DNA of 24,181 nucleotides. Source: an uncultured Bacteroides sp. GTDB lineage: Bacteria > Bacteroidota > Bacteroidia > Bacteroidales > Bacteroidaceae. Both the position numbers and the translations under genes were made by a program. Under the pieces are notes generated by a model, which saw nothing but the letters and a program-made list of their open reading frames with translations, made no database searches and had not been told where the DNA came from. Shown here piece after piece: positions 2,781 through 23,860 of the stretch; position 1 is the first letter of the stretch; each line of letters opens with the position of its first letter. The stretch lies in assembly GCA_900755095.1 (NCBI GenBank), contig CAAEFE010000083.1, forward strand, positions 1 through 24,181. Direction: 5' to 3'.

Positions 2781-5714
2781 ATGGTGATAATTTTACCTAA
2801 TTTCTTTTTGCAGAAGCCTGTTTGTCGTTTGCTGGCTGTCATGGGCTTTTTAGGATTTAGTGGAGCGATAGCGTCTCAATCAAGTTCGCCTGTGAATATT
2901 GATTCTGTGGAGACCTATATGAAAAAAGACTCTTTTGAGAAGAATGTAGGATCTCGTTTCGTTACTAATCGTAGTATAGACTCCTTTGGGGTGAGTGATA
3001 CTGTTGATATCAAGATGTTGCAGCGCTCTCAATTTTTATCTATTCAGCAATTACTGAAAGGGAATGTGCCCGGTGTATATGTACAGGAAAATAATGGTGA
3101 GCCTGGTACCATTCAAAGCATGCTGGTTCGTGGCTTATCTTCACCTGTCTTTTCTAATAAAGATGTGTCCGGTGTTCAGCCGACAGTTTATTTGAATGGC
3201 GTTCCATTGATGCTGGAAAATAGCTATGTGTACGATATCAAGCAGTTTGATATTAATCCGATAGGAGCCGCTGCCAACATGCTGGCGGGATTGGATATAT
3301 CTTCCATAGAGTCAATCGAAATTATCAAAGATCCGCTTCAGCTTGCCAAATTAGGTCCTTTAGCTGCTAATGGTGCCATCTGGATAACAACCAAAGACGG
3401 TTATTATGGCGGTGAAAACGTTTCTATCGGGGTTTCGGCAGGAATGGCCTTTGCTCCGTCTTCGGTTCGTATGACGAATGGATCATACGAAAAAGCATTC
3501 CGTCAACGTTTCTATGATACGTATTCTCTTACACCGGGTAAACAACCCGATTATCTTATGGATACAAGAGATGTACGTTATTTTGGTAAACCGGACTGGG
3601 CAGACGATTATTATCAGTCATCACTCTTATATAATGTAAATGCTTCTATCGGTGGTGGTTCAAAGAAAGCGAATTATGTATTTACACTCGCAACGACAAA
3701 AGATGCGGGAGCAGCGGACAATACCTCTTATACGAAATATAATATTGGCTTTGCCTTGAATATGGTTCCTTTGGATGGCTTGAATGTTAGTACAATTATT
3801 AATGCCGCTAAGATAGACCGTGTCAGGAATCGGAATTTTAGAGACAGGTTTGCTGAGATGGAGTATATGGTTGATTTTTCAACTCCGCTTGCACCTGCCG
3901 GCAATTTGTATAATGACTTTTTAATATCCAATGATTTGACTAAAGATGATAATTATAACAATTTACTGAATGGATTGTTGGCTTTGAGCTATACTAAGCA
4001 AAGATTCAATGCTACAGCCAGCATCAAACTTGATTATACAACAAATGTTCGTCGCGCTTTTTGGCCTATGGCTTTGTTGGAGTCCGTCAACTTTGTATCT
4101 AACTATTCAGGATACAATCAACGGATTATAGGTGAAACTTCAGCGAGCTATTTGTTGCCTTTAGCTGATATTCATAAGTTGAATATTCAGTGGAATGGCT
4201 CTATAACCAGCGATTTGTATCACTATAATTATACTCGTGCCTATGATGGTGATGATGATATGAAGCCGACAACAAGTACCGGGAACTTCAAGCAGTATCG
4301 TTATGTTGATCGTTTGGAGAATAGGTGGGTATCGACTTCAATAGCTTTAGATTATAAGTATAAGAATTTGCTTAATGTGGGATTATTGGCAAGATACGAC
4401 GGAAATTCCGCTATCCAGTCGGATCACAGATGGATGTTTACACCCGCTGCCTCTGCTGAATGGAATTTAAAGAATCATTTTTTTACAGGTAGTACTGCAT
4501 TGTCTGGATTGTCTTTGCGTGCATCTTATGCACGAATAGCCAAATCATTCCAGTCCGATAGATATGAATTAGGTCCTCAATACTTGGCTACAAGTATCAC
4601 ATGGAGTGGCGAACCGTTACTTTCCTCAGCTAATGGATTTGCAACAATCACTCGTCCGTATGCATCGGGTTGGGTTGGTTATGATTTAAAGCTTCCCTAT
4701 TCTGATAAAATGGAGCTTGCTTTGAAAGGTTCTTTTTTCGACAATCGCATTATTGCGGAAATAAGTCTGTATAAGAATTATGAAAAGAATTTATTGACAT
4801 ATTTGCCTGTCACTCAAGAAATGGGATATGAGTATAAACTGGCCAGTGGAATGGATATCAGTAATCAGGGATTGGAATTAAATCTTTCGGCATCCATTTT
4901 GAAGAACACTCCGTTGAAGTGGGATTTGTCTTTCAATGCAAGTTATAATAAGAACAAACTAGAGAAACTTCCCGAAAACCAGAAGACAACTGTGATAGGC
5001 GACCATAAACTACAAGTAGGACAGTCAGTTGATGCCTTTTGGGTGTATCAAAATAAAGGCATTTATACAAACGACTCAGAAGTTCCTGTTATGAATGGGA
5101 AACCACTGAACATAAATGGAGTTCCTTTTAAAGCAGGAGATCCTGTTTGGACAGACGTTGACGGAAATAATCAGATTAACGACAATGACCGTGTGCTGAC
5201 CGGACATGCCATTCCACCCTATACAGGAGGATTGACTAACCAGTTTGCTTATAAAAGATTCGATTTCAGCTTCAATCTCTTCTTTGCTTTGGGGCATAGT
5301 GCTTTAAATCTGCGCGATCAGCAACGTTACGACTTTGCGACTTTGGATAATATTCAGTCCTTGCAGTCTGTCAAGGAGATTTTCTTTTGGCAAAACACTA
5401 ATCAGCGTGACGATTATCCTATATACAATCCGCAAAGCAGTGTTCATCCTTACCGTGCAGAACAGGATTTGTTCCTTGAAAAGCTGTCATACCTGAAACT
5501 GAGAAATATAACTGTTGGTTACACACTTCCTATAAAGAAAGTTGGTAGTAATATACCTAAAAGTTTGTATTTCTATCTGACAGGATCTAATCTGTTATCT
5601 TTCAGTAATTTTTCAGCAGGTGATCCGGAATTAGTTAACTTCAATGGTACCTATGACGGGTATTCGCTTCCCATTCCTCGTTCCATTTCTTTGGGACTGA
5701 GATTTAAGTTCTAA
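2781..5714 (+). CDS. SusC-like TonB-dependent outer-membrane transporter, short form without N-terminal regulatory domain
   Basis: A 977-residue SusC/RagA-family channel. It starts with a signal peptide (hydrophobic segment about residues 15-30, probable cut after GAIA). A linker of about 45 residues follows, and then the plug domain (about 70-215, with LLKGNVPGVYVQENNGEPG, VRGLS, YLNGVPL, SIESIEIIKDP and GPLAANGAIWITTK). The remainder is a beta-barrel ending in the aromatic-terminated strand LGLRFKF. A DVDGNNQINDND loop near residue 795 is the Ca-binding-like loop common in SusC proteins. The carboxypeptidase-regulatory-like domain and the DExVVVGY-type TonB box seen in most SusC proteins are absent. 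In-frame TAA at 2760-2762 shows this is not simply a truncated reading. It begins the operon and pairs with the SusD-like gene 21 bases downstream. The substrate is unknown. Confidence 0.93.
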   Translation: MVIILPNFFLQKPVCRLLAVMGFLGFSGAIASQSSSPVNIDSVETYMKKDSFEKNVGSRFVTNRSIDSFGVSDTVDIKMLQRSQFLSIQQLLKGNVPGVYVQENNGEPGTIQSMLVRGLSSPVFSNKDVSGVQPTVYLNGVPLMLENSYVYDIKQFDINPIGAAANMLAGLDISSIESIEIIKDPLQLAKLGPLAANGAIWITTKDGYYGGENVSIGVSAGMAFAPSSVRMTNGSYEKAFRQRFYDTYSLTPGKQPDYLMDTRDVRYFGKPDWADDYYQSSLLYNVNASIGGGSKKANYVFTLATTKDAGAADNTSYTKYNIGFALNMVPLDGLNVSTIINAAKIDRVRNRNFRDRFAEMEYMVDFSTPLAPAGNLYNDFLISNDLTKDDNYNNLLNGLLALSYTKQRFNATASIKLDYTTNVRRAFWPMALLESVNFVSNYSGYNQRIIGETSASYLLPLADIHKLNIQWNGSITSDLYHYNYTRAYDGDDDMKPTTSTGNFKQYRYVDRLENRWVSTSIALDYKYKNLLNVGLLARYDGNSAIQSDHRWMFTPAASAEWNLKNHFFTGSTALSGLSLRASYARIAKSFQSDRYELGPQYLATSITWSGEPLLSSANGFATITRPYASGWVGYDLKLPYSDKMELALKGSFFDNRIIAEISLYKNYEKNLLTYLPVTQEMGYEYKLASGMDISNQGLELNLSASILKNTPLKWDLSFNASYNKNKLEKLPENQKTTVIGDHKLQVGQSVDAFWVYQNKGIYTNDSEVPVMNGKPLNINGVPFKAGDPVWTDVDGNNQINDNDRVLTGHAIPPYTGGLTNQFAYKRFDFSFNLFFALGHSALNLRDQQRYDFATLDNIQSLQSVKEIFFWQNTNQRDDYPIYNPQSSVHPYRAEQDLFLEKLSYLKLRNITVGYTLPIKKVGSNIPKSLYFYLTGSNLLSFSNFSAGDPELVNFNGTYDGYSLPIPRSISLGLRFKF

Positions 5715-5735
5715 AAATATCGGAGATGATAAAAA

Positions 5736-5759
5736 ATGAAAAACAATATGAAAAACAAT
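5736..5759 (+). repeat. Two tandem 12-bp units carrying start codons
   Basis: ATGAAAAACAAT occurs twice in a row and is followed by ATGAAAAAA, so the SusD-like gene has three in-frame ATG codons 12 bases apart (5736, 5748, 5760). Copy-number change would keep the reading frame but alter signal-peptide length and the distance from the ribosome-binding site. Confidence 0.9.
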
Positions 5760-7286
5760 ATGAAAAAATTGCGATTAGCTCTTTTCTCCGCACTTGCCTG
5801 TTTATTTTTGCAGTCCTGCAATGACTTTCTGGATGTAGATCCCAAACATGCAGCTTCGGAAACCCAACAATGGAAGACCCTTGAAGATACTCGATCAGCA
5901 TTGATGGGAGTATATGGCTTGACACGCGCAGCCTTAGCCGATAACAATACTCATTGGATATGTGGTGATTTGCGGAAGGGGGATTTTACGGTTTATAAGC
6001 GTAGTGATTTACAAGCTGTGTCTGATAATGAATTGAACAAGCCATATGACTTGTTGAAGAAAGTATCTAACTGGAGAAGATTTTATGCGGTAATCAATGC
6101 GGCATCTGTTTTTATGGAAAAAGCTCCACGAACTGTCGAACTTGACCGGTCGTATTCTGAACAAAACTTGAAATATGACATTGCTCAAGTACGCGCTTTG
6201 AGGGCATTTGCTTATTTTTATATGGTAAGAATCTGGGGAGATGTGCCGTTAGTCACCTATTCTTATGATAACGGAACTTTTCCGTCTATGCCTCGTACAG
6301 ACGCTCAAACGGTGCTGAGTTACGCTAAGGCAGAACTGTTGACAGCTATAAAGGATTTACCCTATCAATATGGTACTCAAACGAATTTATATTATGGTTC
6401 ATATGGGGCCCAATGGCAGGGAAAACTGTTCAATAAGTTATCTGCATACTCTGTATTAGCTCACATCTGTGCTTGGCAGGGAAATTATGCAGAAGCCGAG
6501 ACATATTCTTCATTTATACTAGATCATGCATCTGAGATTAATGCAAAATATACTTCTATTGCCGACTTGACTTCAGAAACAGGGCTGTTTTACTCGAATG
6601 CGAGTGTAAAAGGTTCAAGGATTTTAGGATTTAATTTTGCTCACAATGATAACGAAGCAACTCAAAGCGGACATCTTGAACAGTTGACTTTAGCTTATCC
6701 ATTGGTACAAAAATCCTATCCTGAAATATACATTTCAAAGGACAGCTTATTTTCGATTTTTACCAATTTTGATGACTTGCGGTTTGGAATCATAGATACC
6801 ATCAAATATTCATCCTATTATGTTCAGAATTTGAATGAAGAAACTCCGGTGTTCAGTAAAATAAAGATTATTCAGGATGGATCGGCGAAAGACAATGATT
6901 TCGGAGTCTTTGGCTCGTCTATTGTTTTCACTCGCCTTGAAGATATCACCTTGCTACGGGCTGAAGCATTATGCGCACTAAATAGAAGCACAGAAGCTGT
7001 ATCCTACTTGAATATGATCCGAACAAATCGTGGATTGAGAGAAGTATCTTTTAAAAAGGATTTTGGGAATAATCGCGAAAGCTTAATTGCCGAGATATTT
7101 GAAGAGCGTCGCAGAGAGCTTATGGGAGAAGGCTGGAGGTGGTATGACCTTGTCCGTCGGCAAAAGCTGATGAAAGATAATGAGGCATTCTTGCGACTGA
7201 TCAGCAGTGGTGGAATCTACTGGCCGGTATCGGAAGATATCATTACTGCTAATTCACAGATTGAACAAAATGAGTTTTGGAAATAA
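5736..7286 (+). CDS. SusD/RagB-like surface lipoprotein (first pair)
   Basis: A 516-residue SusD-family protein, the extracellular lid and ligand-binding partner of the SusC channel just upstream. The signal peptide ends in a lipobox with Cys28 (LFLQSC), followed by NDFLDVDP, the usual SusD start. The N-terminal SusD region contains RALRAFAYFYMVRIWGDVPLV (about residues 153-173). The C-terminal TPR-like part contains LRAEALCALN, the FEERRRELMGEGWRWYDLVR signature (about 455-475) and ends in NEFWK. Three in-frame ATGs at 5736, 5748 and 5760 come from a repeated 12-bp unit, so the real start is ambiguous. A GGAG at 5722-5725 favours the first. The ligand cannot be predicted. Confidence 0.95.
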   Translation: MKNNMKNNMKKLRLALFSALACLFLQSCNDFLDVDPKHAASETQQWKTLEDTRSALMGVYGLTRAALADNNTHWICGDLRKGDFTVYKRSDLQAVSDNELNKPYDLLKKVSNWRRFYAVINAASVFMEKAPRTVELDRSYSEQNLKYDIAQVRALRAFAYFYMVRIWGDVPLVTYSYDNGTFPSMPRTDAQTVLSYAKAELLTAIKDLPYQYGTQTNLYYGSYGAQWQGKLFNKLSAYSVLAHICAWQGNYAEAETYSSFILDHASEINAKYTSIADLTSETGLFYSNASVKGSRILGFNFAHNDNEATQSGHLEQLTLAYPLVQKSYPEIYISKDSLFSIFTNFDDLRFGIIDTIKYSSYYVQNLNEETPVFSKIKIIQDGSAKDNDFGVFGSSIVFTRLEDITLLRAEALCALNRSTEAVSYLNMIRTNRGLREVSFKKDFGNNRESLIAEIFEERRRELMGEGWRWYDLVRRQKLMKDNEAFLRLISSGGIYWPVSEDIITANSQIEQNEFWK

Positions 7287-7299
7287 AAAGAAAACGACA

Positions 7300-8094
7300 A
7301 TGAATAAGATACTATTTATTTTATGTCTGACTTCGGCTTCCCTTTGGATGCTGTCTTGTACAGATTACGAAGTGGCTTCATATCCTGAGGAAAATGAAAC
7401 CGAAGTATTTAATGGAACGGTTCTGGATTATTTGTCCACAGGGAATGAAAGGCTGAATTTGAAATTTGATTCTATGATGGTTCTTGTCAACAATATTCCC
7501 GATTTCATACAACAGATGGAACAGACGGATGTGCAATATACAGTTTTTGCCATACCGGATGCATGTATCCGTTCCTCATTGGCGCAACTTAACGAGTACC
7601 GTAAACAAAAGGAGTTGGGTGAAGCGATTTATTTGAGTGATTTATTAATTGAACCGTTTGTTGTTAAAGATACGATCGTTAATGTTATAACACCGACTTT
7701 AAATGATACGATCATTAACGAATATCATTATGATTATAGAGCTGACCTTGAGCGAATGTTATGCAAGTACATTATTAAAGGTAGTTACGATACCGATAAT
7801 ATTCTAGCCAATGAAGGAAATAACTCCTTAAATTCTTTGAAGTACAATTATCAAATGAATATAGAATGTTCTCGCAAACCGGCATCCGGATTTGTAGGCG
7901 GAGGAGTCAAACAGCTTATTTTCAGTGATATGAAAAACTCTCAGGTAAAAGATAACTGGAACAGAGTTTCTACGGTATGGAATGATGTTTATACAAATAA
8001 TGGTATCATTCACATCCTTTCTCCCCAACACAGTTTCGGTTTTGATGAATTTATTTACGTATTTAATAATTATGGCAATGAATATAAGAAGTAA
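7300..8094 (+). CDS. FAS1 (fasciclin)-domain lipoprotein, first cassette
   Basis: A 264-residue lipoprotein; the ATG at 7300 is chosen because it directly precedes a lipoprotein signal (lipobox MLSC, Cys20), although the frame is open further upstream into the SusD gene. The two conserved FAS1 motifs are visible: YTVFAIPDACI (residues 80-90, the H1 'TxFAPxxxA' motif) and NGIIHIL (234-240, the H2 'NGxIHxID' motif). The protein ends with an HSFGFDEF tail that is shared with the second FAS1 gene at 13869. FAS1 domains mediate adhesion or carbohydrate/protein contact. Position after SusC-SusD suggests a surface accessory of that pair. The function is inferred only. Confidence 0.82.
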   Translation: MNKILFILCLTSASLWMLSCTDYEVASYPEENETEVFNGTVLDYLSTGNERLNLKFDSMMVLVNNIPDFIQQMEQTDVQYTVFAIPDACIRSSLAQLNEYRKQKELGEAIYLSDLLIEPFVVKDTIVNVITPTLNDTIINEYHYDYRADLERMLCKYIIKGSYDTDNILANEGNNSLNSLKYNYQMNIECSRKPASGFVGGGVKQLIFSDMKNSQVKDNWNRVSTVWNDVYTNNGIIHILSPQHSFGFDEFIYVFNNYGNEYKK

Positions 8095-9112
8095 AAATAT
8101 TGCGCTGCTGTTTTCCTGCGTATTATTAAGCATATCGTGTGTCGATAAATATTTGCCGGATAGTTTGGATGCTTTCGACAGAGACGTCAATTTTACTACA
8201 AAACTATATCGTCCTCAACTAGGAAAAAATACTTTGATGTCCGACAACTTTTCATCGGGTAATTCAACGCTTCCTCTTACTTTCGAAATATCACGAATCG
8301 TGAGGGCCGACGGAAGTCCTGCACCTGAATTGACGGAATATTTCCCGGTAAAAGTTTGGAAAACTCCATATATGGGTACCGAAAAGTCTATAGAAGAAAT
8401 AGAAGCTAAAAGAGAAATAGAATATCGTACTCTTTTTCAGGTTAAAAAGCATTCCGGAGAATTTATGATGTGGTCCAATGCCGAATCTTCTTTTGTGCAG
8501 TGTGCTCCGAGTGACGGTTATATTTTTGATGTGCTGGTGAAAAACTCGGGAGGATATAAAACTTTTACCGATATGCAGCTTATACCTGTCAGAGAAAGTG
8601 ATTACGAACCGAGTATATACGATCCGGAAACAGGGTTGGTGCAGGGACAGGACTATGTTACACCAAATTCGTTAACCCTTTTTCAAACAGAAAGTGGAGA
8701 CTATATGTTTCCTGAAGATGTACATATTTATTTTCGTGAGAACCAAGATAATGATGATGATGTAAAAAGTTTGACTTTTCGTTTTTATGGACCGGATTAT
8801 ACACCGATCTCTCCTTCATCTTTTAATCAGACAGACTGGGCTAATCTGATTCATGGTTTCAACATGGAGAAAACAGATGAATATGTAAAGTACGATGTAG
8901 TTTATCCGATGCCATTGGTTGAAATGAAATCAAAATATACCAATAAAGATGGTAATAGAATAAATGTCAATTTTTTATATGACCGTATTACAGCAAGTGG
9001 TTATCGTATGACATCCACTATGTCATTTGAATTTGCGATATACAAGGAAGCTCATTGGGAGATAATAGTTGTATTTACAGCAGGAGCCCCCTTGTTTGAA
9101 GATGGAAAATAA
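8072..9112 (+). CDS. Surface lipoprotein, probably DUF5007 family
   Basis: A 346-residue lipoprotein starting at 8072 (or 8078), inside the end of the preceding gene (23-base overlap), which suggests translational coupling. An upstream in-frame ATG at 7982 gives a leader without signal-peptide logic and was not chosen. The lipobox is SISC (Cys23). The rest is a beta-rich soluble protein (LYRPQLGKNTL, PLTFEISRIVRADGSPAPEL, YDVVYPMPL, NVNFLYDRITASGYR). It resembles proteins annotated DUF5007, often found beside SusC/SusD and FAS1 genes. I recall this family with moderate confidence only. There is no enzymatic motif that I can see; a ligand-binding role on the surface is the simplest guess. Confidence 0.65.
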   Translation: MAMNIRSKNIALLFSCVLLSISCVDKYLPDSLDAFDRDVNFTTKLYRPQLGKNTLMSDNFSSGNSTLPLTFEISRIVRADGSPAPELTEYFPVKVWKTPYMGTEKSIEEIEAKREIEYRTLFQVKKHSGEFMMWSNAESSFVQCAPSDGYIFDVLVKNSGGYKTFTDMQLIPVRESDYEPSIYDPETGLVQGQDYVTPNSLTLFQTESGDYMFPEDVHIYFRENQDNDDDVKSLTFRFYGPDYTPISPSSFNQTDWANLIHGFNMEKTDEYVKYDVVYPMPLVEMKSKYTNKDGNRINVNFLYDRITASGYRMTSTMSFEFAIYKEAHWEIIVVFTAGAPLFEDGK

Positions 9113-9135
9113 CTAATTAATACCATGATTCTAAT

Positions 9136-12100
9136 ATGAGAAATATATTTAAATATGGCTTGTTGGCTATGGCGATTGCCGTCACCTCGGTTGGTGTTCG
9201 GGCTCAGGATATTCCTGTCAGTGGTGTAGTCAAAGATAAAAGCAATAATTCTACATTGCCTTATGCTTCTGTTATTGTTAAAAATGAAAGTGGAAAAACG
9301 GTGCCTCAGCTTTCAACCACAACTGATGATAACGGACGATTCTCTACAAAAGTTAAGAGTGGTTACCGACTTGTATTCTCTTTCCTGGCGTTCGACAGTC
9401 TTTCAGTCAAAGTTACTAAACCTTCAGAACGCATGCAAATATATCTGAGTCCGACAGAGAATATGCTTGATGAAACAGTTGTAGTCGGATTTAAAAGAGT
9501 TAGCAAGGCTGCGGTAACAGCATCGGTTACGGTTATTAAAGCAGAAGATCTGGTCAATACTCCTGTTGCTAATCCAATGGAGTTGCTTCAAGGGCGTGTT
9601 CCCGGATTAAATATTCAGATGAATAATGGTACTCCCGGAGGTCTTCCAAGTTTTTCAATTCGAGGAGTCTCGGATATTTCCGTTCAATCTTCCGGTGATG
9701 GCGAGTTTATGATGGGGCTGACTCCTCCTTTGTTTGTAGTTGACGGTATACCGCAGGAAGACGTAACGGGCTATGATGCAGCTGGTTTGCTGTCAGGTGC
9801 AACAGTCAGTCCGTTGGCTATGATTCCACTTGAAGATATTGCGAATATCCAAGTATTGAAAGATGCAGCTGCAACCTCTCTGTATGGTTCAAAAGGTGCT
9901 TACGGAGTAATTCTTATAGAGACCAAAAGAGGAGAAACAGCCAAACCGAAAGTTTCTTATTCAGCTAACTTTGTAGTCAAAACCCCACCGAGGTTGAGAG
10001 ATGTACTTGCAGGCGGGGCGGAGAGAGCGCTTAGAATTATGCAAATTTTGGGAAATGATACATCCGCCTATCACGGATATAATGAAATCCATAAATTGCA
10101 GGCACTGTCAGATAGCTTGAATCCTTATTACAATAATAATACGGATTGGCAGGGTGTCTTTTATCAGACGACTTACAATCAAACTCATAATCTTAGTTTC
10201 TCTGGTAAACCCAATGAGAAATTTGACTATAAGATCAATGCAAACTATTATACGGAAAAAGGAATTGTGAAAAACACGGACTTTAACCGATATGGTATCA
10301 GGGCAGCAGTAGGATATAAGCCTAATGATAGATTTCATTTGAATCTAAACCTTGCCACTACATTAACCCGAAACAGTAATGGTAGTGGAAATGCTTTCTC
10401 ACAATCCGGCGTAGCCGCAGGTTCGGCAGCTTCTTCCTTGTTACCTCCACCGTCTATGTATACAGCTTCTAATTCTGCATTGTCTGTTTTTTCTGTCCAG
10501 GCAGATAATCAGAATGTAGTCTATGATGCAAGTATGAATATCATGTATCTGTTGCCATTTGATATAAGATGGAGAAGTACTTTAGGATATAAATACGGAA
10601 CTGTGGAGAATGAGAAATTTACGCCGGGTATTTTGAATGCCAATAGGGCTACTTGGAATAACGGTAGTGAATATAGTTATAATATGTATGTTCGTTCATT
10701 ATTGTCAAGAACCGTAAAATTGGGAATTGTAAATTTTGATTTACAGGGAGGTTTTGAACTTTCATCCGAAAAGTATAGCGGTAACTTTATTATGCTAAAT
10801 GGATTGGCAAGTGACCATATATGGTCGTCCGGTATGCCGTCCATGGCAGCTGGAAGGTCGAATTTTTCAGATAAAAAGAATACGTTTGCACTTATTATAG
10901 ATCCTCAGTTATCGCTGCCTGGTGGGAAATACGTATTTACTCCCAATATTCGTCCTGAAATAAATTCATCTTATGGGTCGCAGGCGAAATGGGCAATAAA
11001 TCCTTCATTAGGATTTCGCTGGAACTTCAGCCGTGAATCTTTTGCTAAAAAATGGAAGTTTCTGGATGCCGGAGCTCTTCGTGTAACTTGGGGACGTAGT
11101 ACCACTTATAAAGCTAGTATTTATGATATATGGGGAAGTTACAATCTGAGCAAAGATACTTATAATGGAGTTTCTATTATTCCTATTGATAAAAACGCTA
11201 TGCCGAATCCGGATTTGAAGCCGGTAACGTCAACATCATGGAATCTCGGAACAGACTTATCATTCCTTAATAATAAAATTATGTTCGTTGCCGAGGCGTA
11301 TTACAAACAAATTGACAATCAGCTAAGTTCGATAGAGTTGGCTAACCACAATGCTTTTAATTCCGTAAGAAGTACGAAAACGAGTCTGGTTAACTATGGA
11401 TTGGAGTTTTCGTTGAACGTCCGTCCGTTGTCAAGGCAAAGTAATTGGGATTTGAATGTAGCGACTTCACTGGCAATTAATAAAGACGTGATCGCAAAGC
11501 TGCCTAACGAGGTGCGGCAGATTATTAACAGTGATGCGGAAGTGGTGAATAAATTAGGTTCTAACGCGATGGGGAATTATCTCTATGTGTATAAAGGCGT
11601 ATATGCGACTGACGAAGACGTGCCTGTTAATCCGCTGACCGGAGAACGCTTGCGGATGGGAGGGAATACTTCTACTCAAGCATACTTTAAGGCGGGAGAC
11701 CCTATTTGGGTGGATGTAAATGGTGATTATATCATCGATGAAAAAGACAAGGTGATTGTAGGTAATTCACAGCCGCGAATGACCGGTGGTATTAGTATCA
11801 ATCTTCGTTATAAAGCGTTTTCTATCAACACTAACTGCTCGTTTACGTTGAGACGTGATATTATCAACAAGGCTCTGGCAGACCGTTTTAGGGCTTATGG
11901 AACACCTGTAGCAGGTAAGGTGAACCTTACAGGTAGTGGAGCTTTAACACCTATTGAGGCATATAATTTCTGGACAGAAGATAATATCTATGCCCAATAT
12001 CCTAATCCGTTTGATTATACCCGTTCAAGTATTATTCAGCCTTTCAGATACGACCAGACATTGTTTATGGAAGATGGCTCTTATTTTAAAATTAACGGTA

Positions 12101-12306: not shown

Positions 12307-12330
12307 ATGAACGATTAAATATAGAAGAAT

Positions 12331-13842: not shown

Positions 13843-13868
13843 CTCTGATAAACTTAAAATGTATAGAT

Positions 13869-14591
13869 ATGAAAAATAATATCAAATTATGGAAGAAAAT
13901 TGTCGGATGTTGCCTTTTGGCAGTACTCATGTACAATTGTGCCGATGATAGTTATTTAATTGATGGTGGAAAAGCGAACCCTTATTATAATGGGAATATG
14001 ATGCAATATTTGCAATCAAGACCCGATTATTTTAAAGATTTGGTGGAAGTCATCCGGCTGTCCGGTATGGAAGATGTTTTTGAAGACGAACAAATTACCT
14101 TTTTTGCACCTACCGATTGGTCAATCCGTGGTAGTTTTAATTATCTGAACCGTATTTGGTATCGTATGGGGCATGATAGCATCAAGAGTTTTAGTCAGAT
14201 AAAACCGGAAGTCTGGCGTGAAATGCTGTCAATGTACATTGTAAAAGATAAATATTTGCTGAAAGATATACCTCAAATTGATACGACTGCCATAGCAGCC
14301 TATCCGGGACAGGCATTTTTATCTTATGGTCAGCAGCCTATGAACATGGGTGTTGTTTATTATGATGCAAACAATGTGAAATATGCCGGTGCAAGACAAA
14401 TCATATACTCTTATGTCTATGATTTCACTATAGGAGATATGAAAAACGCTTATGTAGCAACATCTGATATACAACCGACTAACGGAGTGGTACATGTACT
14501 CAGATTAACCGATCATGCATTTGGTTTTGAACCATATCTTTTCGCTACCAAAGCTATAAATGCGACAATAGAAACAGAACCGGATAATTAA
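13869..14591 (+). CDS. FAS1 (fasciclin)-domain lipoprotein, second cassette
   Basis: A 240-residue lipoprotein. The ATG at 13869 is preferred over the frame's first ATG (13833), which lies inside the SusD gene and gives no signal peptide. The lipobox is LMYNC (Cys24). FAS1 motif H1 is ITFFAPTDWSI (residues 76-86) and H2 is NGVVHVL (205-211), followed by DHAFGFEPYLF. That tail matches HSFGFDEFIYVF of the first FAS1 protein, so the two are paralogues at equivalent positions in their cassettes. It is probably surface-exposed and associated with the second SusC/SusD pair; its ligand is unknown. Confidence 0.83.
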   Translation: MKNNIKLWKKIVGCCLLAVLMYNCADDSYLIDGGKANPYYNGNMMQYLQSRPDYFKDLVEVIRLSGMEDVFEDEQITFFAPTDWSIRGSFNYLNRIWYRMGHDSIKSFSQIKPEVWREMLSMYIVKDKYLLKDIPQIDTTAIAAYPGQAFLSYGQQPMNMGVVYYDANNVKYAGARQIIYSYVYDFTIGDMKNAYVATSDIQPTNGVVHVLRLTDHAFGFEPYLFATKAINATIETEPDN

Positions 14592-14611
14592 CTATAAATA
14601 AAGATAGTACA

Positions 14612-16297
14612 ATGAAACATATTACCATCTATTCGTTAATGATTGTTTGCTCCGTATTCACTTCGTTATTGGTAACATCCTGTAACAGTGATCTGAACAG
14701 CAATATTAAAGATGATCCGTACAGTGGAGGAAAAGCTCCGCTTGGAATCGGTTTGCTGGCTGAATCTCCTTCTCCGGAAAGCGCTTATCCCAATGATACG
14801 GTTGTATTCAAAGCAAAAGGGATGTTGAACTGGTGTGATCCGCAATCAGGACGTTACGATTTCAAGTTCTATATTTCTGATGAAGAAACTAAAATTGTAA
14901 CTGCTACCGACACGACAATCACCGTGAAAGTACCTGGAAATCTTAGTTCGGGTACGGCTTATATTGTATTGAAAGAACAGGTTTTCTATGGACCTCGTCT
15001 CACTGTATTAGGAAATATTAAGATAGATCAGTCATACGGCTTTAAAGGCACTTCGGGACCTATTTACGATTGTGCGGAACATTATTCAAAAGCACGGGTA
15101 TATTATCCTGTTGGCGACTATATGCAGGCCTACTACAATGAAAATAGCTCGCAGAGGTTTTCTTGTATATCTATGGTTTTGACAGACGGCTCTGTATCGG
15201 GAAAATGGGTAACTGACTTCAAACTTGATCCTGGTCAGGGAGCCGGCATTGATCTGGCCAATCCGGGAGTGACAGATATTGAATGTTACCTTAATTCATT
15301 TACTTATTTTCCTAGTGACCACAGGGTTCTTCTGTCGGGTAAATTTTCAGAATACGGCTGGGATAAGTTGCCGGTCAATAACATCACGATAGCTACTAAT
15401 GAAGTAGCCTCGTATTATAAAACTGTAGCGCTGCCTTCGAAAAAGAATAATACAAGCATAAATTGTAAGATACCGGTATTCAACGGGGGAACTCTTGAAG
15501 CGCCTGTCCGTACATTTATAACTTCCAATGAGAAGGTGGTAGCAGTAGGAAATATTACAAACTACTGTCGTATTAATACCGAAAAATCCTATGCTGAGAG
15601 TATGGTTTTGGATTATTCGAAGGTTGCAAGTGTATTGCGTATGTCAAGGACTGGAGAACTTGATGATAGCTATCGCAGGGATGCAGAAGGAGTTGTCGGG
15701 CAGATTTTAGATGCTTGTATGGTCGAAAGTGACGGTATTGTCATAGTAGGGACATTTAGCAGTTTCGATGGACAGTCTGTGAAGAATATTGTGAAGTTGA
15801 ATGCCGAAGGTACCCTTGATGAAACTTTTATGAGAAACATCGGTACGGGCGCAAATGGAAGTATTACTAAAATCCGGTACAATAAAAACAAAAAGAAAAT
15901 CCTTATAACTGGGGAGTTTTCTGAGTTCAACGGTATTCCTGCACAGAGTGTAGTTATGTTGAATGATGATGGCACACGTGATGAAATTTTCAAGATCGGA
16001 AAAATGGAAGGAGGATTGGCCAATTTTGCCTGTCTGCTTGATAATGATAATATTGTTGTTTCAGGTGCGTTTACGAAATACGATGGTGTAACTCGCCGTG
16101 GTTTCCTTATATTGGGTCGTGATGGAAAGGCGCTGCAACAATTTAATGTGCCGGGCATCTTCCAGGGTGAACTCTACAAAGTAATTGAAACTCGTACTTC
16201 GACCAATTCAAACGGATTGCTGCTGCTTGGTGATTTCAGTCGTTTTGATGGTAATATGGTTCGCAATGCGATGATGATAGAAGTTGATTATGAATAA
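14612..16297 (+). CDS. Lipoprotein with DUF5008-like N-terminal domain and delta-60/DUF5122-like propeller repeats
   Basis: A 561-residue lipoprotein (LVTSC, Cys24). Residues about 43-140 form an IPT/TIG-like beta domain of the DUF5008 type (APLGIGLLAESPSPESAYPNDTVVFKAKG, DTTITVKVPGNLSSGTAYIVL, GPRLTVLG). The rest carries repeats with the motif GxFxxFDG: 380-387 (GTFSSFDG), 434-441 (GEFSEFNG), 485-492 (GAFTKYDG), 540-547 (GDFSRFDG), spaced 51-55 residues. A degenerate copy lies at 243 (GKFSEYGW). LNAEGTLDETF-type segments follow the first repeats. This is the pattern of delta-60 (DUF5122) beta-propeller repeats. A rigid surface binding or scaffold protein is likely. It occupies the place held by the DUF5007-like gene in the first cassette. 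Confidence 0.82.
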   Translation: MKHITIYSLMIVCSVFTSLLVTSCNSDLNSNIKDDPYSGGKAPLGIGLLAESPSPESAYPNDTVVFKAKGMLNWCDPQSGRYDFKFYISDEETKIVTATDTTITVKVPGNLSSGTAYIVLKEQVFYGPRLTVLGNIKIDQSYGFKGTSGPIYDCAEHYSKARVYYPVGDYMQAYYNENSSQRFSCISMVLTDGSVSGKWVTDFKLDPGQGAGIDLANPGVTDIECYLNSFTYFPSDHRVLLSGKFSEYGWDKLPVNNITIATNEVASYYKTVALPSKKNNTSINCKIPVFNGGTLEAPVRTFITSNEKVVAVGNITNYCRINTEKSYAESMVLDYSKVASVLRMSRTGELDDSYRRDAEGVVGQILDACMVESDGIVIVGTFSSFDGQSVKNIVKLNAEGTLDETFMRNIGTGANGSITKIRYNKNKKKILITGEFSEFNGIPAQSVVMLNDDGTRDEIFKIGKMEGGLANFACLLDNDNIVVSGAFTKYDGVTRRGFLILGRDGKALQQFNVPGIFQGELYKVIETRTSTNSNGLLLLGDFSRFDGNMVRNAMMIEVDYE

Positions 16298-16313
16298 CTT
16301 ATTATGAAATACA

Positions 16314-18143
16314 ATGGAAAAGTTGATAAAAAATATAATGCTTTGCCTGTTTGCTGTATTTGCATTCTCGTGCAATGAGGATATGGAAAGGCTTTTGACT
16401 GATGATTATCCGGAGTCGGGTACTGAATATACTACGGGACACGTATTGATGGTGGTTATCGATGGTGCATCCGGAATAGCCGTTAATGAGGCGTACAATA
16501 CACGAAAGGCTCCAGTTATCCGCTCCATGACGGATAAATCTTTGTTTACTTTTTACGGACTTGCCGACAATGAAGAAGGGGTAAGTAAAGAACGTGGATG
16601 GGCAAATTTGCTGACCGGAACAACAAAGAACGGGCTTGATGTCAATCAAGGAATTGACGAACTCGAAACGCCTTCTTTTCTTCAACGATTGAAAGAGGCG
16701 GATGAAAATCTAAAAGTTAGCTTTTATTCTTCCGATACGGAGTTTTTCGGAGCTTTCGGGAGTGTTGCCGATACTAAAAGAAAGACTTCGGCCGACAGTG
16801 AAACCGCTGATGCTCTTATTGCTGAAATCAATGGTGAAACAATCTCGGATATCGTAGTTGCACAGTTCGGCGGTGTTCAACAGACTGGTGAGCAACATGG
16901 ATTCTGGAGCAATGAGACAACTCCTACCAGTGAGGTTATTGATGCGATTTACAATGTAGATGCTTTCATCGGTAAAATAATGAAAGCACTTGAAGCGCGT
17001 CCGCGTTACGTTCAGGAAAACTGGCTTGTAGTTATTACATCTTCTTATGGTGGTGTTTATGAAGGTAATGTAACTCCGGCATCGTTGTATGATGATCCGC
17101 GTCTCAATTCTTTCATGATGCTCTATAACAGTCGGTTTGCATCCAAATTGTTGCAAAGGCCAGGTTCGGATGAATTACAATACAAATTCTATAGTCCTTA
17201 TTTCGTCGGTCCCGGACAAAAAGCGACAACAAATGCCGTTATGACTGGAAATACCGAGTTTTTTAATATGGGTAAACGATGGAGTTCCAATCCGGATGAA
17301 GAGGTGGATAAAAGTGGATATACCATTCAGTTTAAAATGTTTGATAAGCACGGCGACCCTTGGGGTAATAGAAATATAATATCGAAAAGATACCAAAAAG
17401 CAGGTACAGGTTGGCAGCTAATGTTTTCTAATAATACGCAAGTCGAATTTGCTGCTAATTTTAAAGAGGGTTCTTCGGTTTTCCGCTTACCATCTACGAG
17501 ACGTGACGGATCATGGCATTCTTATACGCTAGTTATAAAAGAGGTTGATGATACCCAGAAAGGTGACTCCATCTTATTTTATCTTGACGGTAAGTATCAG
17601 ATGGGATGTAAGATAGACGGCAGTAAAGATATGTGGACAGATGCGCCTCTTGCCATCGGACATACGTTTTCTCCGGACAGACCTAGTCAGGCAAATCTAT
17701 ATATAAACGATCTCCAGTTTTACAACGTTGCTCTACCTGCTGATATTATTGCGGAGTATCATTGTACTACAAAACTGGACCTTTTGGGTGAATTATATCC
17801 GTATTGGAATAATCTGGTGGGTTATTATCCCAACGATCGCGAAGATGATATCGGATTATCTTATTTGGAAGATTATTCGAAATATACATCAAAAGATAAA
17901 AGATTATACTTCAATAAACCGGTTGGTACGTTTGCGCCTACCGATGATTACGTAACGCGCAGGCAGGAGAGTATTGTAACGGATAAGGTATGCCCACTTA
18001 TAGACGATTCCTACTATAAAACGGTTCTTAATACAGTCGATTTATCCTATCAGATTTTTCAATGGTTTGGAGAGCCGGTTGATTCTTCCTGGAATTTCGA
18101 TGGTGAAGGCTGGGCATTAGATTACGTTTCTTTAAATAATTAA
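16314..18143 (+). CDS. Alkaline-phosphatase-fold lipoprotein with LamG-like insert (DUF4983 type), predicted inactive
   Basis: A 609-residue lipoprotein (FAFSC, Cys20). Residues 43-270 resemble the phosphodiesterase/alkaline-phosphatase superfamily: HVLMVVIDG (first metal Asp at 50), GWANLLTG (95-102), a region with helix AIYNVDAFIGKIMKAL (211-226), and strand NWLVVITSSYGG. The usual D-x-x-GH metal motif reads QQTGE (189-193), and the usual DHG reads SYG (244-246). Residues about 310-460 are a LamG/jellyroll domain (GYTIQFKMF, GSWHSYTLVI, ILFYLDGKYQMG, INDLQFYNVALPADIIAEYH). The end (SYQIFQWFG...FDGEGWAL) looks like the last element of the phosphatase fold, so LamG interrupts it. I recall DUF4983 for such C-termini. 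I infer binding, not catalysis. Confidence 0.75.
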   Translation: MEKLIKNIMLCLFAVFAFSCNEDMERLLTDDYPESGTEYTTGHVLMVVIDGASGIAVNEAYNTRKAPVIRSMTDKSLFTFYGLADNEEGVSKERGWANLLTGTTKNGLDVNQGIDELETPSFLQRLKEADENLKVSFYSSDTEFFGAFGSVADTKRKTSADSETADALIAEINGETISDIVVAQFGGVQQTGEQHGFWSNETTPTSEVIDAIYNVDAFIGKIMKALEARPRYVQENWLVVITSSYGGVYEGNVTPASLYDDPRLNSFMMLYNSRFASKLLQRPGSDELQYKFYSPYFVGPGQKATTNAVMTGNTEFFNMGKRWSSNPDEEVDKSGYTIQFKMFDKHGDPWGNRNIISKRYQKAGTGWQLMFSNNTQVEFAANFKEGSSVFRLPSTRRDGSWHSYTLVIKEVDDTQKGDSILFYLDGKYQMGCKIDGSKDMWTDAPLAIGHTFSPDRPSQANLYINDLQFYNVALPADIIAEYHCTTKLDLLGELYPYWNNLVGYYPNDREDDIGLSYLEDYSKYTSKDKRLYFNKPVGTFAPTDDYVTRRQESIVTDKVCPLIDDSYYKTVLNTVDLSYQIFQWFGEPVDSSWNFDGEGWALDYVSLNN

Positions 18144-18156
18144 ATTAGAATGCAAT

Positions 18157-20274
18157 ATGAAATGCTTTAATAAACTAAAAGCCGACTATGCAGTTTTGCT
18201 GTCATTCATTTCCTGTATGTTTTTTATGGGAAGCTGCAACATTGCTTATCAATATGATATCGAAAGCGGGACAGAGGATGATACCGCCGATTCTACCAAT
18301 GTAACCATAGTAACAGGTGAAGGAATCGATGTCAGTATGTATGAAAGTGCCCGTATTTTTCCGGGTTTGGTAGATACTTTAGTCGATAATACTGTCAATA
18401 CACTGCTTGCGCTTGATTTAAGCAAGAGATACATTCCTGCATACGATCTTGACGTGCAACAAGTTCCTCGTCCGATATACAGCACCGGGCTTTATGCCGG
18501 AGCAGGTGAATTGATTACTATAACCATTAATGACAACACTATGGGGTTGACGGTTATCATCGGTTCTCATTTAGATGATTTGACGGATATTTCTCCCTAC
18601 TTGCGTTTGCCGGTAGTTACTACTTCGAAGCAACTGTTCCCAGGAAAAAACACGATTCGTAATCCTTTGGGAGGTATGATATGGATCGAAAAAAGCAAGG
18701 ATGTGAATGGTAGTGCGGATTTTGTTATGGAGATTAACGGGGCTTATCGTTCGCCTGATTTTATTGTCGGTTCTACTGATGTAACAGCGTGGGTTGAGCA
18801 GTTGCGTACAACGACTGTACCGTGGCTCGAGTTGCGTGGCCGGCATGTCGCTTTTTCTGTTCAGCGTGAGCGATTATTGGATATGATAAATGATGATCCT
18901 ATCATTGCTGAAAAGATGCCGAACACACTGGAAGCATGGGATAATGCTGTCGAGACCTATTATTATAACTATTACAGTTTGCAGGTTGGGGCACAGGATT
19001 TTTCAATGCGTGCTCCCGATTTTCCTGAGCGTGTGGTGCTGGATGTGGAGTTGTTGGACAATCTGTATATTCGTAATGCCGATTATGGTGTAGTGGCATT
19101 GAATACAAATTATCTGTTGAATGAGCTGGCTAGCTATCAAACGTTGAAATCCGGTAATTCTGTTGCTATTTTTAATGCGTTATATAGAAATTACTCTTTC
19201 AGAGATATAAAATCACCCTGGTGGAGCGAAGTATCTGATGCGGTAAAAGCAATTCCCCTATATCGCATGGCTGAGAAAGGATTAAGAGAGGATGGGTATC
19301 CGATGGGACCGATTTTCCCGGAAGAAGGCAGTAGCATTGCGGAGCAATTCCCCAAAGCATTGGCATATGCAGATACCGATAGTAGCCGCTGGTTTGTATC
19401 TGATATAAAGTCGGAAGTACGGCCGACATACGCATTGGCAAGCCTCGTTCAATTAGCTAACTACAAAGATGACGATTGGGCTTTTTATATAGAGTTGAAC
19501 CGTATGATTAAAGATAAAATTTCCATAGATCATTCTACTTCTACCTATTTCTTTAAGGCTTTATGTGACTATTTTAAGGAAGATTTTTCACCATTCTTTG
19601 AGCATTGGGGCTATTCGCTGACAGACGAAGCCCGTAGTTATGCATCGAAATATCCGCTGATGGATAAAGCCATATGGAAATACTCGCCTCTGGCAGAAAA
19701 TCCATCAAGTGGTGTGGTTGATTTCCCAAGTAACGGGTATCACTACCGTCATAATCGAGCTGACTGGGAGATTTATGCACTGGATGCAAATGGAAGCGAT
19801 AACTTTAATTCAGGGCAGTCGCCGGACCGATTGCTGGACAGCGACAAATCAACAGGATGGACTTCATATTACAACAACGATACAAGTACTCCGCCACTTC
19901 CGTATTATTTGTTTATTGATATGAAAGAGACGACAGATGTTAATGGTGTATTTCTGGCTGGCAACAACTCAGACTTTGCGGCAATTAAGCTGATTATCGA
20001 GACTCCTGTCAATCAGGATATTATTAATGATCCGCTTGACGAAAATATAGTTTGGAGGGAAATTGTGCAGATTGATTCCATTGCACATCCCGAGTTGCCC
20101 AATATTAAAAGTGAGAGTTTCTATGATTTTCCGTCAAAAGAACAAGTGAGATATCTGCGTATAAAACTTCCTGAACCTAATCGTAATGATAACTGGAATG
20201 AAACAGATATGTCTCGTTTTAGGTTCAGAGTACAGTCGTTTACCGAGTTTGGTACATTTTATTATAAACCGTAA
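18157..20274 (+). CDS. M60-like (enhancin-type) lipoprotein with discoidin-like C-terminal domain, zinc motif lost
   Basis: A 705-residue lipoprotein (FMGSC, Cys27). Residues about 105-500 follow the M60/enhancin pattern: TGLYAGAGELITITI (110-124), FPGKNTIRNPLGGMIWIEKS (161-180), YRSPDFIVGSTDVTAW and TVPWLELRGRHVAFSVQ (220-236), and DFSPFFEHWGYSLTDEA (476-492). M60 enzymes are zinc metallopeptidases that cleave mucin-like glycoproteins through HExxH. Here the corresponding stretch reads NALYR at 340-344, and no HExxH occurs anywhere. A downstream EVSDAV (358-363) aligns with the family's EVtnN segment. Residues about 530-705 look like an F5/8 type C (discoidin) sugar-binding domain (SPDRLLDSDKSTGWTS, RYLRIKLPEP). 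It is likely a glycoprotein-binding pseudo-peptidase. It lies between the two phosphatase-fold genes. Confidence 0.76.
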   Translation: MKCFNKLKADYAVLLSFISCMFFMGSCNIAYQYDIESGTEDDTADSTNVTIVTGEGIDVSMYESARIFPGLVDTLVDNTVNTLLALDLSKRYIPAYDLDVQQVPRPIYSTGLYAGAGELITITINDNTMGLTVIIGSHLDDLTDISPYLRLPVVTTSKQLFPGKNTIRNPLGGMIWIEKSKDVNGSADFVMEINGAYRSPDFIVGSTDVTAWVEQLRTTTVPWLELRGRHVAFSVQRERLLDMINDDPIIAEKMPNTLEAWDNAVETYYYNYYSLQVGAQDFSMRAPDFPERVVLDVELLDNLYIRNADYGVVALNTNYLLNELASYQTLKSGNSVAIFNALYRNYSFRDIKSPWWSEVSDAVKAIPLYRMAEKGLREDGYPMGPIFPEEGSSIAEQFPKALAYADTDSSRWFVSDIKSEVRPTYALASLVQLANYKDDDWAFYIELNRMIKDKISIDHSTSTYFFKALCDYFKEDFSPFFEHWGYSLTDEARSYASKYPLMDKAIWKYSPLAENPSSGVVDFPSNGYHYRHNRADWEIYALDANGSDNFNSGQSPDRLLDSDKSTGWTSYYNNDTSTPPLPYYLFIDMKETTDVNGVFLAGNNSDFAAIKLIIETPVNQDIINDPLDENIVWREIVQIDSIAHPELPNIKSESFYDFPSKEQVRYLRIKLPEPNRNDNWNETDMSRFRFRVQSFTEFGTFYYKP

Positions 20275-20285
20275 ATTTATATCAG

Positions 20286-22058
20286 ATGAATAAACTATTA
20301 AATATTCTCACATACAGCTTGCTTGTTGTTTGTGTCCTGGCATTTAACTATGCTTGCACGGAATACGATACACCTGCTGAAATAGCAGACGATGGAACTA
20401 TAGATACCGGCATATCTACCAAAATCCATCGTAAAGTATTATGGATAAATATAGATGGTGCGGTTGGTGAAGTGGTGAAGAACTCCCTTCCTGCCGATGG
20501 TGCCATTGCTAAGATGTTGAAAAATAGTAAATATTCGTGGACAGGAGTTAGTGACAATCGAACCCTGTCTGTCGAGAGGAACGAAGACCCTGTAACGTGG
20601 GCAACCATGCTCACTGGGGTCATACCCGAAAAGCACAGTATAACCGATGAATCTTATACTGCTAATGTGGAGTACAATCCGAACAATCCGAATGAAAAGG
20701 TAATTCACTATCAAAACATTATTAGCTATATTTCGAATAATGACGTGAATATGCTTTCATTGTGTGTGACACCTTGGGCGAAACTGAACAAAAATATGCT
20801 TAACAATGCTAAGACTACCATTACTTCAGAAAATGACGTTCAAACTCGGGATGTGGTTCTCAATCATATTGCGAATGAAGATTACACATTCATTCTGGCC
20901 GATTTTTCAGGAATGTTGGAGGCTGGGAAGAGTGGGGGATTCAAAGCGGACAACGCTGCTTATGTCAGTGCACTTGAAGCTATAGACGGATACATTGGTG
21001 AATTTTTGTCGGCGATTGATGCCCGTGAGAATGCATTTTACGAAGACTGGCTTATTGTTGTAACTTCCAATCACGGTGGATCGGCTGACGGTCGTTATGG
21101 TGGCACTTCGGAAGTGGAGCGTAACACGTTTGGTCTGTTTTACTACAATCATTATACGGAAAAACAATTGAATGGTAATAGACTATACGGTGCATATTTT
21201 GATTCTCAGAATGAATACAAGGCTGTCGTTTTTGATAGTATAGGTAAATATTATTCTTTAGGTATGGATGCATTTTCAATGGAGATCATAATGCGTATGG
21301 TTCCTAGGCAGGACGGTACATATAATGGTAACAATTGGGATCGCATACTTGGAAAAGCCGGCTGGGGACTATATAGGCAGAGAGGAACTGTATCCATGAG
21401 AACAAATCCTAAGGAAGGTCCTGCTCTTGAGCAAGCTATTACCGGATACAATGATTCTAAATGGCATCACTATGGTGTTAGCATAAGTTCCGCTGCCTCC
21501 GGAAGGAGAAATTGGCTCATTACTTTAGATGGTAAGTTGCAGGGATCTGGAACTACGGATACCCAAGGATTGGCTCCGGATTCAAGCCTTTTGGCGATAG
21601 GTGGTTATTCTGTGCCAACTTCCTATTATATATCGGAAGTACGTCTATGGAAAAAGGATCTTGCTGAAAGAGAATTTTTGCAACTATCGGGAGAAATTGA
21701 TATTGAACCTTCTAGTGATATGCTCGGCTATTGGAAATTCAAGCCAACAGAGCAACTTGAGAAATTAGAGGAGGATACATTAGTAATTAAAAATCAGATA
21801 CAAGGTGGACTCAATATGTATTATATTAAAGATAAAACAAGCAGTTCTCCGGATATCGAACAGAAAGCTTCTGCCATGTTTGCAAATACATTGCCTACCA
21901 ATGTCAATGCTGAAAGAATCTGTGTTGAGAATACGCTGATAGTACCGCAAATTCTCTATTGGTTAGGCATCTCGGTGCCATCCACATTAGATGGATACGT
22001 GTTTATCAATAACTATGCGCTTTCAGAAGAATGGCGCGAAGAGGTGGATACGGAATAA
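20286..22058 (+). CDS. Alkaline-phosphatase-fold lipoprotein with LamG-like insert, second paralogue, predicted inactive
   Basis: A 590-residue lipoprotein (NYAC, Cys24), same architecture as the gene at 16314. Phosphatase-fold markers are KVLWINIDGAVG (Asp58), TWATMLTGVIPEKHS (104-118), AAYVSALEAIDGYIGEFLSAI (224-244) and DWLIVVTSNHGG (254-265). The metal-site D-x-x-GH aligns with LEAGK (211-215) and the DHG motif is NHG (262-264), so one His remains. LamG-like sequence spans about residues 325-480 (DAFSMEIIMRM, WHHYGVSISS, RNWLITLDGKLQGSG, YISEVRLWKKDLAEREF). The terminal VPQILYWLGISVPSTLDGYVF is clearly the end of a phosphatase fold, so LamG is inserted in it. Binding or scaffolding is likelier than hydrolysis. 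It is the last gene of the operon. Confidence 0.76.
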   Translation: MNKLLNILTYSLLVVCVLAFNYACTEYDTPAEIADDGTIDTGISTKIHRKVLWINIDGAVGEVVKNSLPADGAIAKMLKNSKYSWTGVSDNRTLSVERNEDPVTWATMLTGVIPEKHSITDESYTANVEYNPNNPNEKVIHYQNIISYISNNDVNMLSLCVTPWAKLNKNMLNNAKTTITSENDVQTRDVVLNHIANEDYTFILADFSGMLEAGKSGGFKADNAAYVSALEAIDGYIGEFLSAIDARENAFYEDWLIVVTSNHGGSADGRYGGTSEVERNTFGLFYYNHYTEKQLNGNRLYGAYFDSQNEYKAVVFDSIGKYYSLGMDAFSMEIIMRMVPRQDGTYNGNNWDRILGKAGWGLYRQRGTVSMRTNPKEGPALEQAITGYNDSKWHHYGVSISSAASGRRNWLITLDGKLQGSGTTDTQGLAPDSSLLAIGGYSVPTSYYISEVRLWKKDLAEREFLQLSGEIDIEPSSDMLGYWKFKPTEQLEKLEEDTLVIKNQIQGGLNMYYIKDKTSSSPDIEQKASAMFANTLPTNVNAERICVENTLIVPQILYWLGISVPSTLDGYVFINNYALSEEWREEVDTE

Positions 22059-23845: not shown

Positions 23846-23860
23846 TTTGTCGGTGACAAA
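23846..23860. repeat. Short palindrome beside the phased array
   Basis: TTTGTC-GGT-GACAAA is a perfect 6-bp inverted repeat just beyond the fourth phased site. Its right arm TGACAA differs by one base from the TGATAA half site. It could be a diverged fifth site, but it is out of phase by 2 bases. Confidence 0.5.

Follow-up and report, generated by a model that had tools for sequence, protein, structure and literature searches.

The stretch of DNA considered here (the window) comprises 24,181 nt of an uncultured Bacteroides sp. (assembly GCA_900755095.1, contig CAAEFE010000083.1, positions 1-24,181, forward strand), and its plus strand carries at 2781-22058 eleven genes in the order SusC-SusD-FAS1-DUF5007, SusC-SusD-FAS1-DUF5008, followed by an alkaline-phosphatase (AP)-fold/LamG protein (apA), an M60-fold/CBM32-like protein and a second AP-fold/LamG protein (apB). 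A first-pass annotation made from the letters of the window had described these eleven same-strand genes and their families, and both Pfam and the list of open reading frames (ORFs) agree with it.

All features of this operon lie on the plus strand, and the BT numbers given in brackets are the Bacteroides thetaiotaomicron counterparts by order. SusC1 (2781-5714; BT0268) is a TonB-linked transporter of the SusC/RagA type that lacks the N-terminal CarbopepD_reg domain, recognised by Pfam Plug, by TIGR04056 above its cut-off and by SusC structures in PDB. It is followed by the lipoproteins SusD1 (5736-7286; PF07980, PF14322; BT0269), FAS1a (7300-8094; BT0270), a diverged member with no Pfam match that is 25% identical to FAS1b over 225 aa, and DUF5007 (8078-9112; PF16398, E 1e-180; BT0271). 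The second cassette consists of SusC2 (9136-12306; PF07715, PF13715; TIGR04056 729 bits; BT0272), SusD2 (12331-13842; PF07980; BT0273), FAS1b (13869-14591; PF02469, E 3.7e-7; BT0274) and a DUF5008-DUF5124-DUF5122 lipoprotein (14612-16297; PF16400, PF17160, PF17164; BT0275). The last three genes encode apA (16314-18143; BT0276), a lipoprotein with a degenerate AP fold, a LamG part (PF13385) and a DUF4983-like part in which PF01663 and PF16356 score below their cut-offs, the pseudo-M60 lipoprotein with its CBM32-like (F5/8C) domain (18157-20274; PF17291, partial PF13402, PF00754; BT0277), and apB (20286-22058; BT0278), a degenerate AP/NPP-fold lipoprotein with a LamG part. The start of FAS1a was set at 7300 inside a longer ORF (7207-8094) and that of DUF5007 at 8078 inside another (7982-9112), and several analyses of these two proteins were run without the first Met. 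The adjacent SusC and SusD pair that defines a Sus-like polysaccharide utilisation locus (PUL) is present. The two tandem cassettes of the first-pass annotation hold as two sets of SusCD, FAS1 and lipoprotein, but the sets are unequal: the fourth gene is DUF5007 in one and DUF5008-DUF5124-DUF5122 in the other, and SusC2 has the N-terminal domain that SusC1 lacks. All nine non-SusC proteins are likely lipoproteins, since inspection by eye finds a Cys near residues 19-28 after a hydrophobic N-terminus in each, and a location at the cell surface is predicted for them.

The M60 catalytic-domain fold of the protein at 18157-20274 is supported by Pfam, Foldseek and VIA-align, and its model (predicted local distance difference test, pLDDT, 90.3) matches the folds of M60 O-glycopeptidases. 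It carries N, A and R at the places where HExxH has H, E and H, and D at the column of the third-ligand Glu. The HExxH motif and downstream Glu ligand of an active M60 metallopeptidase are thus both missing from the window protein, unlike the M60/PF13402 O-glycopeptidases ZmpB, AM0627, IMPa and BT4244. A homologue search scored 7997 candidates and found 147, and HExxH was present in 6 of the 120 best matches listed. One alignment (A1) combined the window protein with 85 of the homologues found, and in a larger one of 154 M60-like proteins (151 different) 63 keep the H, E and H of HExxH, all 63 with the third-ligand Glu. None of the nine Bacteroidaceae loci fetched has HExxH; every zinc ligand is gone from their rows and the replacement residues vary.

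The two AP-type proteins belong to the NPP/alkaline phosphatase superfamily, apB by its model and apA by a weak sequence match, and differ from it by the loss of metal ligands and the addition of the LamG part. Columns were defined against five phosphodiesterase-type ORFs of ~300 aa, picked on conserved motifs and presumed to be active. The last His column shifts with the alignment and was excluded from use; the counts from the first alignment exclude P0195, P0200 and P0230 as short or unusual rows, as well as P0121, P0122 and P0198 as near-duplicates, and later counts were made without L043, L045 and L049, which are either unrelated or taken in a wrong frame. Neither window protein has the complete two-metal site of active NPP/alkaline phosphatases: apB has lost the second-metal Asp and His (Asp2 and His2) and carries Asp at the nucleophile column, and apA has lost His2, Asp3 and His3. 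Among 75 apB-type proteins Asp1 is found in 71, His3 in 62, Asp3 in 5 and Asp2 and His2 in none; at their nucleophile columns 69 of them have Glu and 73 have Asp, and Lys stands at the place of His2 in 58. The 38 apA-type proteins keep Asp1 in 36 cases and Asp2 in 2, and His2, Asp3 and His3 in none. At the loci that were fetched (42 apA, 38 apB), again no protein has His at the His2 column; Asp is found at the Asp3 column of 0 and 2 and at the Asp2 column of 8 and 0, respectively. Judged from these columns, neither of the two groups of relatives discussed below, the Bacteroidaceae and a Sphingobacteriaceae-type family (f121), retains an intact AP site. The conservation of the active-site losses that the first-pass annotation had left to be checked is thereby borne out for HExxH (0/9) and for AP His2 (0/75 and 0/38). 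A search with the apB family at a threshold of 0.001 matched 68 of 399 genomes, with strong matches in six (G001, G093, G010, G232, G353 and G340); the remaining rows were their apA paralogues, phosphodiesterase-type ORFs of ~300 aa, long proteins matched through a LamG-type part and a small unsorted remainder.

The eleven-gene order, with whole frames, recurs in eight complete Bacteroidaceae loci, the first-pass annotation having suggested a search for it in other Bacteroidales genomes, and this is not due to chance since the order is kept at 32-65% identity. One of the eight (G144, locus L030, C5:76573-77316) has in addition an ORF of 194 aa between susC1 and susD1. The nearest genome sampled, G001, shares 99.5% DNA identity with the window over 2710-23860. 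Directly upstream of its susC1 and in the same direction lies a hybrid two-component system regulator (HTCS) of 1372 aa, and beyond it, divergently oriented, a CBM_4_9-like protein, a GH43+RicinB protein, a GH43+F5/8C protein and a DUF5695-like protein. The first GH43 is identical at 474 of 475 positions to PDB 6euf, which we take to be BT0265, and its other PDB relatives include exo-beta-1,3-galactanases; the second GH43 matches the same exo-beta-1,3-galactanase enzymes. A GH35-type protein of 779 aa lies ~12 kb past the other end of the operon (identified by eye and from a 44% relative that Pfam assigns to GH35). The block of regulator, CBM and two GH43 genes is found in all six Bacteroidaceae loci with enough upstream sequence (G001, G144, G093, G010, G232 and G340), with the regulator split into two ORFs in G232. 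The contigs of G002 and G353 end too early upstream of susC1 to be counted, and that of G083 begins inside the regulator, with genes resembling GH43b and GH43a on the downstream side. The first-pass picture of a locus without hydrolases and regulator is therefore true of the window only: hydrolase genes just outside the locus, which that annotation had named as evidence against itself, are found in the relatives.

In a genus sample the m60 gene matched in 15 of 149 genomes, 6 of the matches being nearly full-length and the others falling within the F5/8C part or close to it. With a threshold of E 1e-20, only G001 matched among the 393 genomes of an order sample, and only G001, G905 and G1258 among the 395 of a phylum sample, so that the distribution of the module is patchy. 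A plasmid search with the m60 gene gave no match.

In B. thetaiotaomicron the matching genes fall within BT0262-BT0290 (PUL5), presumably the locus named PUL-AGPL. Work by Cartmell from 2018 is said to have described B. thetaiotaomicron as a recipient of arabinogalactan oligosaccharides made by keystone species. The match of the window to BT0268-BT0278 is one of gene order and family names. The products given for BT0269-75 (SusD, hypothetical, DUF5007, SusD, DUF5124) and BT0277-79 (carbohydrate-binding, alkaline phosphatase family, hypothetical) agree with the order in the window (PMC10434189). Likewise, relatives of the window share with BT0262-BT0290 the HTCS upstream of susC1, the GH43 close to 6euf and the downstream GH35-type gene, whereas in the window itself IS66 lies 71 bp ahead of susC1 and the similarity to relatives ends at 23860. 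The HTCS BT0267 of PUL5 was reported to activate the promoter of the susC-like BT0268 upon exposure to arabinogalactan, and this promoter serves as a tool for arabinogalactan-inducible expression (PMC6874557). BT0262-90 was assigned to arabinogalactan, with growth at 78.9% of wild type without BT0267 (PMC3243724), and two further sources agree on the link (PMC5061871, PMC3878776). The first-pass proposal of host mucin as ligand is not supported, the response being one to a plant polysaccharide. Its other candidate, another microbe's product, was half right: from complex arabinogalactan, keystone Bacteroides release oligosaccharides that are consumed by other Bacteroides species (PMC8406133). 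In the open-licence PMC literature no role was found for the FAS1, DUF5007, DUF5008/DUF5124, AP-fold or M60-like members, the DUF names turned up in a single paper, and no title or abstract opening on M60 or pseudo-peptidases described this module. As a separate observation, Table 6 of PMC10434189 reports that iron depletion lowers BT0269-75 by 2.6- to 29.5-fold (P 0.007-0.071) and BT0277-79 by 2.6- to 7.6-fold (P 0.033-0.18).

The regulator and enzymes are missing from the window because of where it ends, namely in a mobile element. An IS66-family element (817-2709, +; transposase ORF 817-2622, PF03050; right end at 2709) stands where relatives carry the regulator, and to the left of 2710 there is no match to the stretches of G001, G002 or G144. 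The gap between regulator and susC1 measures 274 bp in G001, and alignment to this genome identifies the 71 bp that separate IS66 from the susC1 start codon (2710-2780, +) as what is left of it. On the right side the similarity to relatives stops at 23860, and a transposase-like ORF was recognised by eye from 24006 to 24181. A gene set seen through one window can thus look enzyme-free where the window ends in a mobile element and relatives have a regulator and enzymes in that place.

The same eleven genes were also found outside the Bacteroidaceae. In f121, the family of G1258 and probably the Sphingobacteriaceae, 251 genomes were searched and 53 had an M60 relative; 59 loci were fetched from the 95 m60 matches listed, picked by strength and length, and the following counts hold for these 59 (G1390:C50, ten matches of ~480-500 aa and 25 weaker ones were left out). 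All eleven genes stand in the exact order in 57 of them, the exceptions being L116 with no apA match and L162 with a split susD2; in G1258 the operon adjoins rpoC and rpoB. What is new here is that this order recurs in f121 with an M60 that is mostly HExxH-intact (56/59). Decay of the window copy alone among active homologues, a case that the first-pass annotation had raised, was not seen in that form: the Bacteroidaceae copies fetched are all dead, and the f121 ones are mostly intact. The f121 modules differ as well in their surroundings, since no GH43a or CBM relative was seen beside the 24 live-M60 loci whose upstream side is available (as a rule 20 kb of it, in one case 9.5 kb; some are near-copies), among which L198 has a GH35 relative at 26%. 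Upstream of L120 lies a FecR gene, and upstream of L180, the live copy of G1507, a hybrid regulator, two sulfatases and two heparinase-like proteins. The dead copy of the same genome (L133, HER+E) is preceded by relatives of GH43a (63%) and of the CBM (47%), by HTCS-like genes and by a GH35; the RicinB part is all that Pfam recognises at 1e-6 in this GH43a relative. L133 is the only dead f121 copy with upstream sequence and the only one beside a GH43 orthologue. GH43a relatives at 1e-60 occur in 13 of the 53 genomes and only that of G1507 exceeds 60%, the other 12 (40-47%) not being adjacent to a fetched module. The remaining two dead copies, L122 (HAH+E) and L136 (HLH+E), have the zinc ligands in place and the catalytic Glu gone, and their contigs end near susC1.

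Trees of the M60-like proteins were built with the motif columns left out, except for the first, which had them in. The HExxH label requires two changes on a FastTree tree of all 154 rows and also on trees restricted to 60 and 61 selected rows; the dead groups on the 60-row tree are one large clade (Bacteroidales-type plus L133) and L122 with L136. With an HExxH-bearing outgroup added there are still two changes, for which reason the direction is likely one of loss, twice, as far as a single long outgroup branch (2.87) can polarise it.

Between G001 and B. faecis, the ratio of nonsynonymous to synonymous substitution rates (dN/dS) is 0.02-0.11 across the eleven genes, with 0.10 for apA, 0.11 for m60 and 0.09 for apB compared to 0.10 and 0.05 for the two SusCs. 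In view of these values between two relatives, all eleven genes look to be under purifying selection. At a larger distance (G001 vs G093) the eleven proteins are 38-65% identical, the regulator and enzymes 74-86% and the flanking proteins 72-92%, except for one at 38% and a small lipoprotein at 57%. The higher divergence of the eleven surface proteins may reflect fast surface evolution or old allele exchange, which cannot be told apart in this pair because synonymous sites are near saturation. Separately, the DNA identity between G001 and G002 is 85% up to G001 C2:95643 and 96% from 97382, with an unmatched stretch between; this step is a possible recombination boundary.

The best reading of these results is that of a surface capture-and-import module for protein-linked glycans in which the pseudo-enzymes would act as binding parts, the glycan here being arabinogalactan. 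We give a probability of roughly 80% to the locus being the surface operon (matching BT0268-BT0278) of an arabinogalactan utilisation locus in a Bacteroides that is closely related to B. faecis and B. thetaiotaomicron, working as follows. In B. thetaiotaomicron, the HTCS BT0267 is reported to switch on the BT0268 promoter upon arabinogalactan (PMC6874557). Each SusCD with its FAS1-type and accessory lipoprotein may then form a utilisome-like importer for a separate arabinogalactan fragment. This is suggested by analogy to the four-part levan and dextran utilisomes (SusC, SusD, surface glycan-binding protein and GH; PMC7618045), which likewise combine SusCD with two surface lipoproteins; the present system differs in having no intact-enzyme lipoprotein, two SusCDs and three extra pseudo-enzyme lipoproteins. 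The pseudo-M60, which carries a CBM32 domain of the galactose type, would hold the glycoprotein or its fragments uncut at the surface together with the two degenerate AP/LamG proteins, and the GH43 and GH35 exo-enzymes would degrade mainly after import. The module may be ancient and its M60 once a working peptidase, whose site would have disappeared in the lineage where module and exo-galactanases came together, with the fold kept for binding. A surface complex with pseudo-enzyme parts, as proposed in the first-pass annotation, is reasonable because the losses are conserved and the genes appear to be under purifying selection.

Several observations weigh against this reading. No regulator or GH43 gene lies in the window, their presence in the strain being deduced from G001, and this copy of the operon may have been uncoupled or silenced by the IS66 insertion in front of susC1; uncoupling would follow if the displaced part contains the site of the regulator. 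The substrate of PUL5 is given as unknown in one table (PMC13088901). The G353 locus has interruptions in its frames for DUF5008 and apB. No binding data were found for any of the nine lipoproteins. Peptidase loss is not tied to galactanases alone, given that the genomes of L122 and L136 have no close GH43a orthologue, and the association of loss with galactanases is mostly that of one clade, hence not independent evidence. Finally, Ser/Thr occupies one of the two candidate nucleophile columns in 32 of the 38 apA-type proteins, and for this reason a loss of the apA nucleophile cannot be claimed; the first-pass statement that three enzyme-like proteins lack catalytic residues stands for key residues in all three, but not for this one.

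Among the alternatives, import of peptides or glycopeptide cores in the manner of RagAB or BT2261-64, with free sugars entering elsewhere, survives best and is still improbable. Live M60 in most f121 modules fetched, the two lipoproteins that accompany each SusCD and the oligopeptide ligands in the Bt2261-64 and RagAB structures would all suit it, against which stand the exo-galactanase neighbours. A slightly less likely possibility is that the folds are rewired rather than dead, their new conserved residues doing other chemistry. The apA column with Ser/Thr speaks for this, together with Asp1 in 36/38 of the same proteins and, in apB, Asp1 in 71/75, His3 in 62/75 and the Glu-Asp pair at the nucleophile columns (69 and 73 of 75); on the other hand, His2 is gone from all members of both sets, and in Bacteroidaceae the M60 zinc ligands are all gone with replacements that vary. 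A capture locus for host mucin or another host glycoprotein without enzymes of its own is very unlikely: the M60 fold is closest to O-glycopeptidases, a CBM32-like domain is present and the BT4244 locus with its active M60 is mucin-linked in the published account, but this reading was set aside in view of the regulator and exo-galactanase-type neighbours in relatives and the reported arabinogalactan response of BT0267/BT0268. Hardly credible is a decay of the three enzyme-like genes into leftovers with no role, which the lost catalytic residues and the interrupted apB and DUF5008 frames of G353 might suggest and which was set aside on account of dN/dS of about 0.1 and of whole frames in fixed order in eight complete loci, the new residues conserved at old catalytic places in apB (Asp in 73/75 at a nucleophile column, Lys in 58/75 at His2) arguing against it as well.

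Starting from the arabinogalactan capture module, a broader and tentative view, which we hold at somewhat below even odds, is that of an ancient portable machine for protein-linked glycans whose order would have remained unchanged from Sphingobacteriaceae-type bacteria to Bacteroidaceae while it was plugged into different enzyme sets, such as exo-galactanases or, in G1507, sulfatases and heparinase-like proteins. The two degenerate phosphatase folds would be structural or binding parts in both groups, and the M60 would have turned into a pseudo-enzyme binding part on coupling to exo-galactanases, with part-way sites (HER+E, HAH+E, HLH+E) still visible. If this is true, several unnamed families gain a common function, and the gradation of M60 sites, running from intact over part-way to eroded, becomes a directly testable case of an enzyme turning into a receptor in nutrient uptake.

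A small lipoprotein of 250 aa with no Pfam family (22205-22957, +; BT0279-like by order) adjoins the operon and is present in one copy here, compared to three related copies in G093 (L023, C26:62039-65037). On the minus strand, 23063-23704 encodes an HU-like DNA-binding protein that is 100% identical in G001, G002 and G144.

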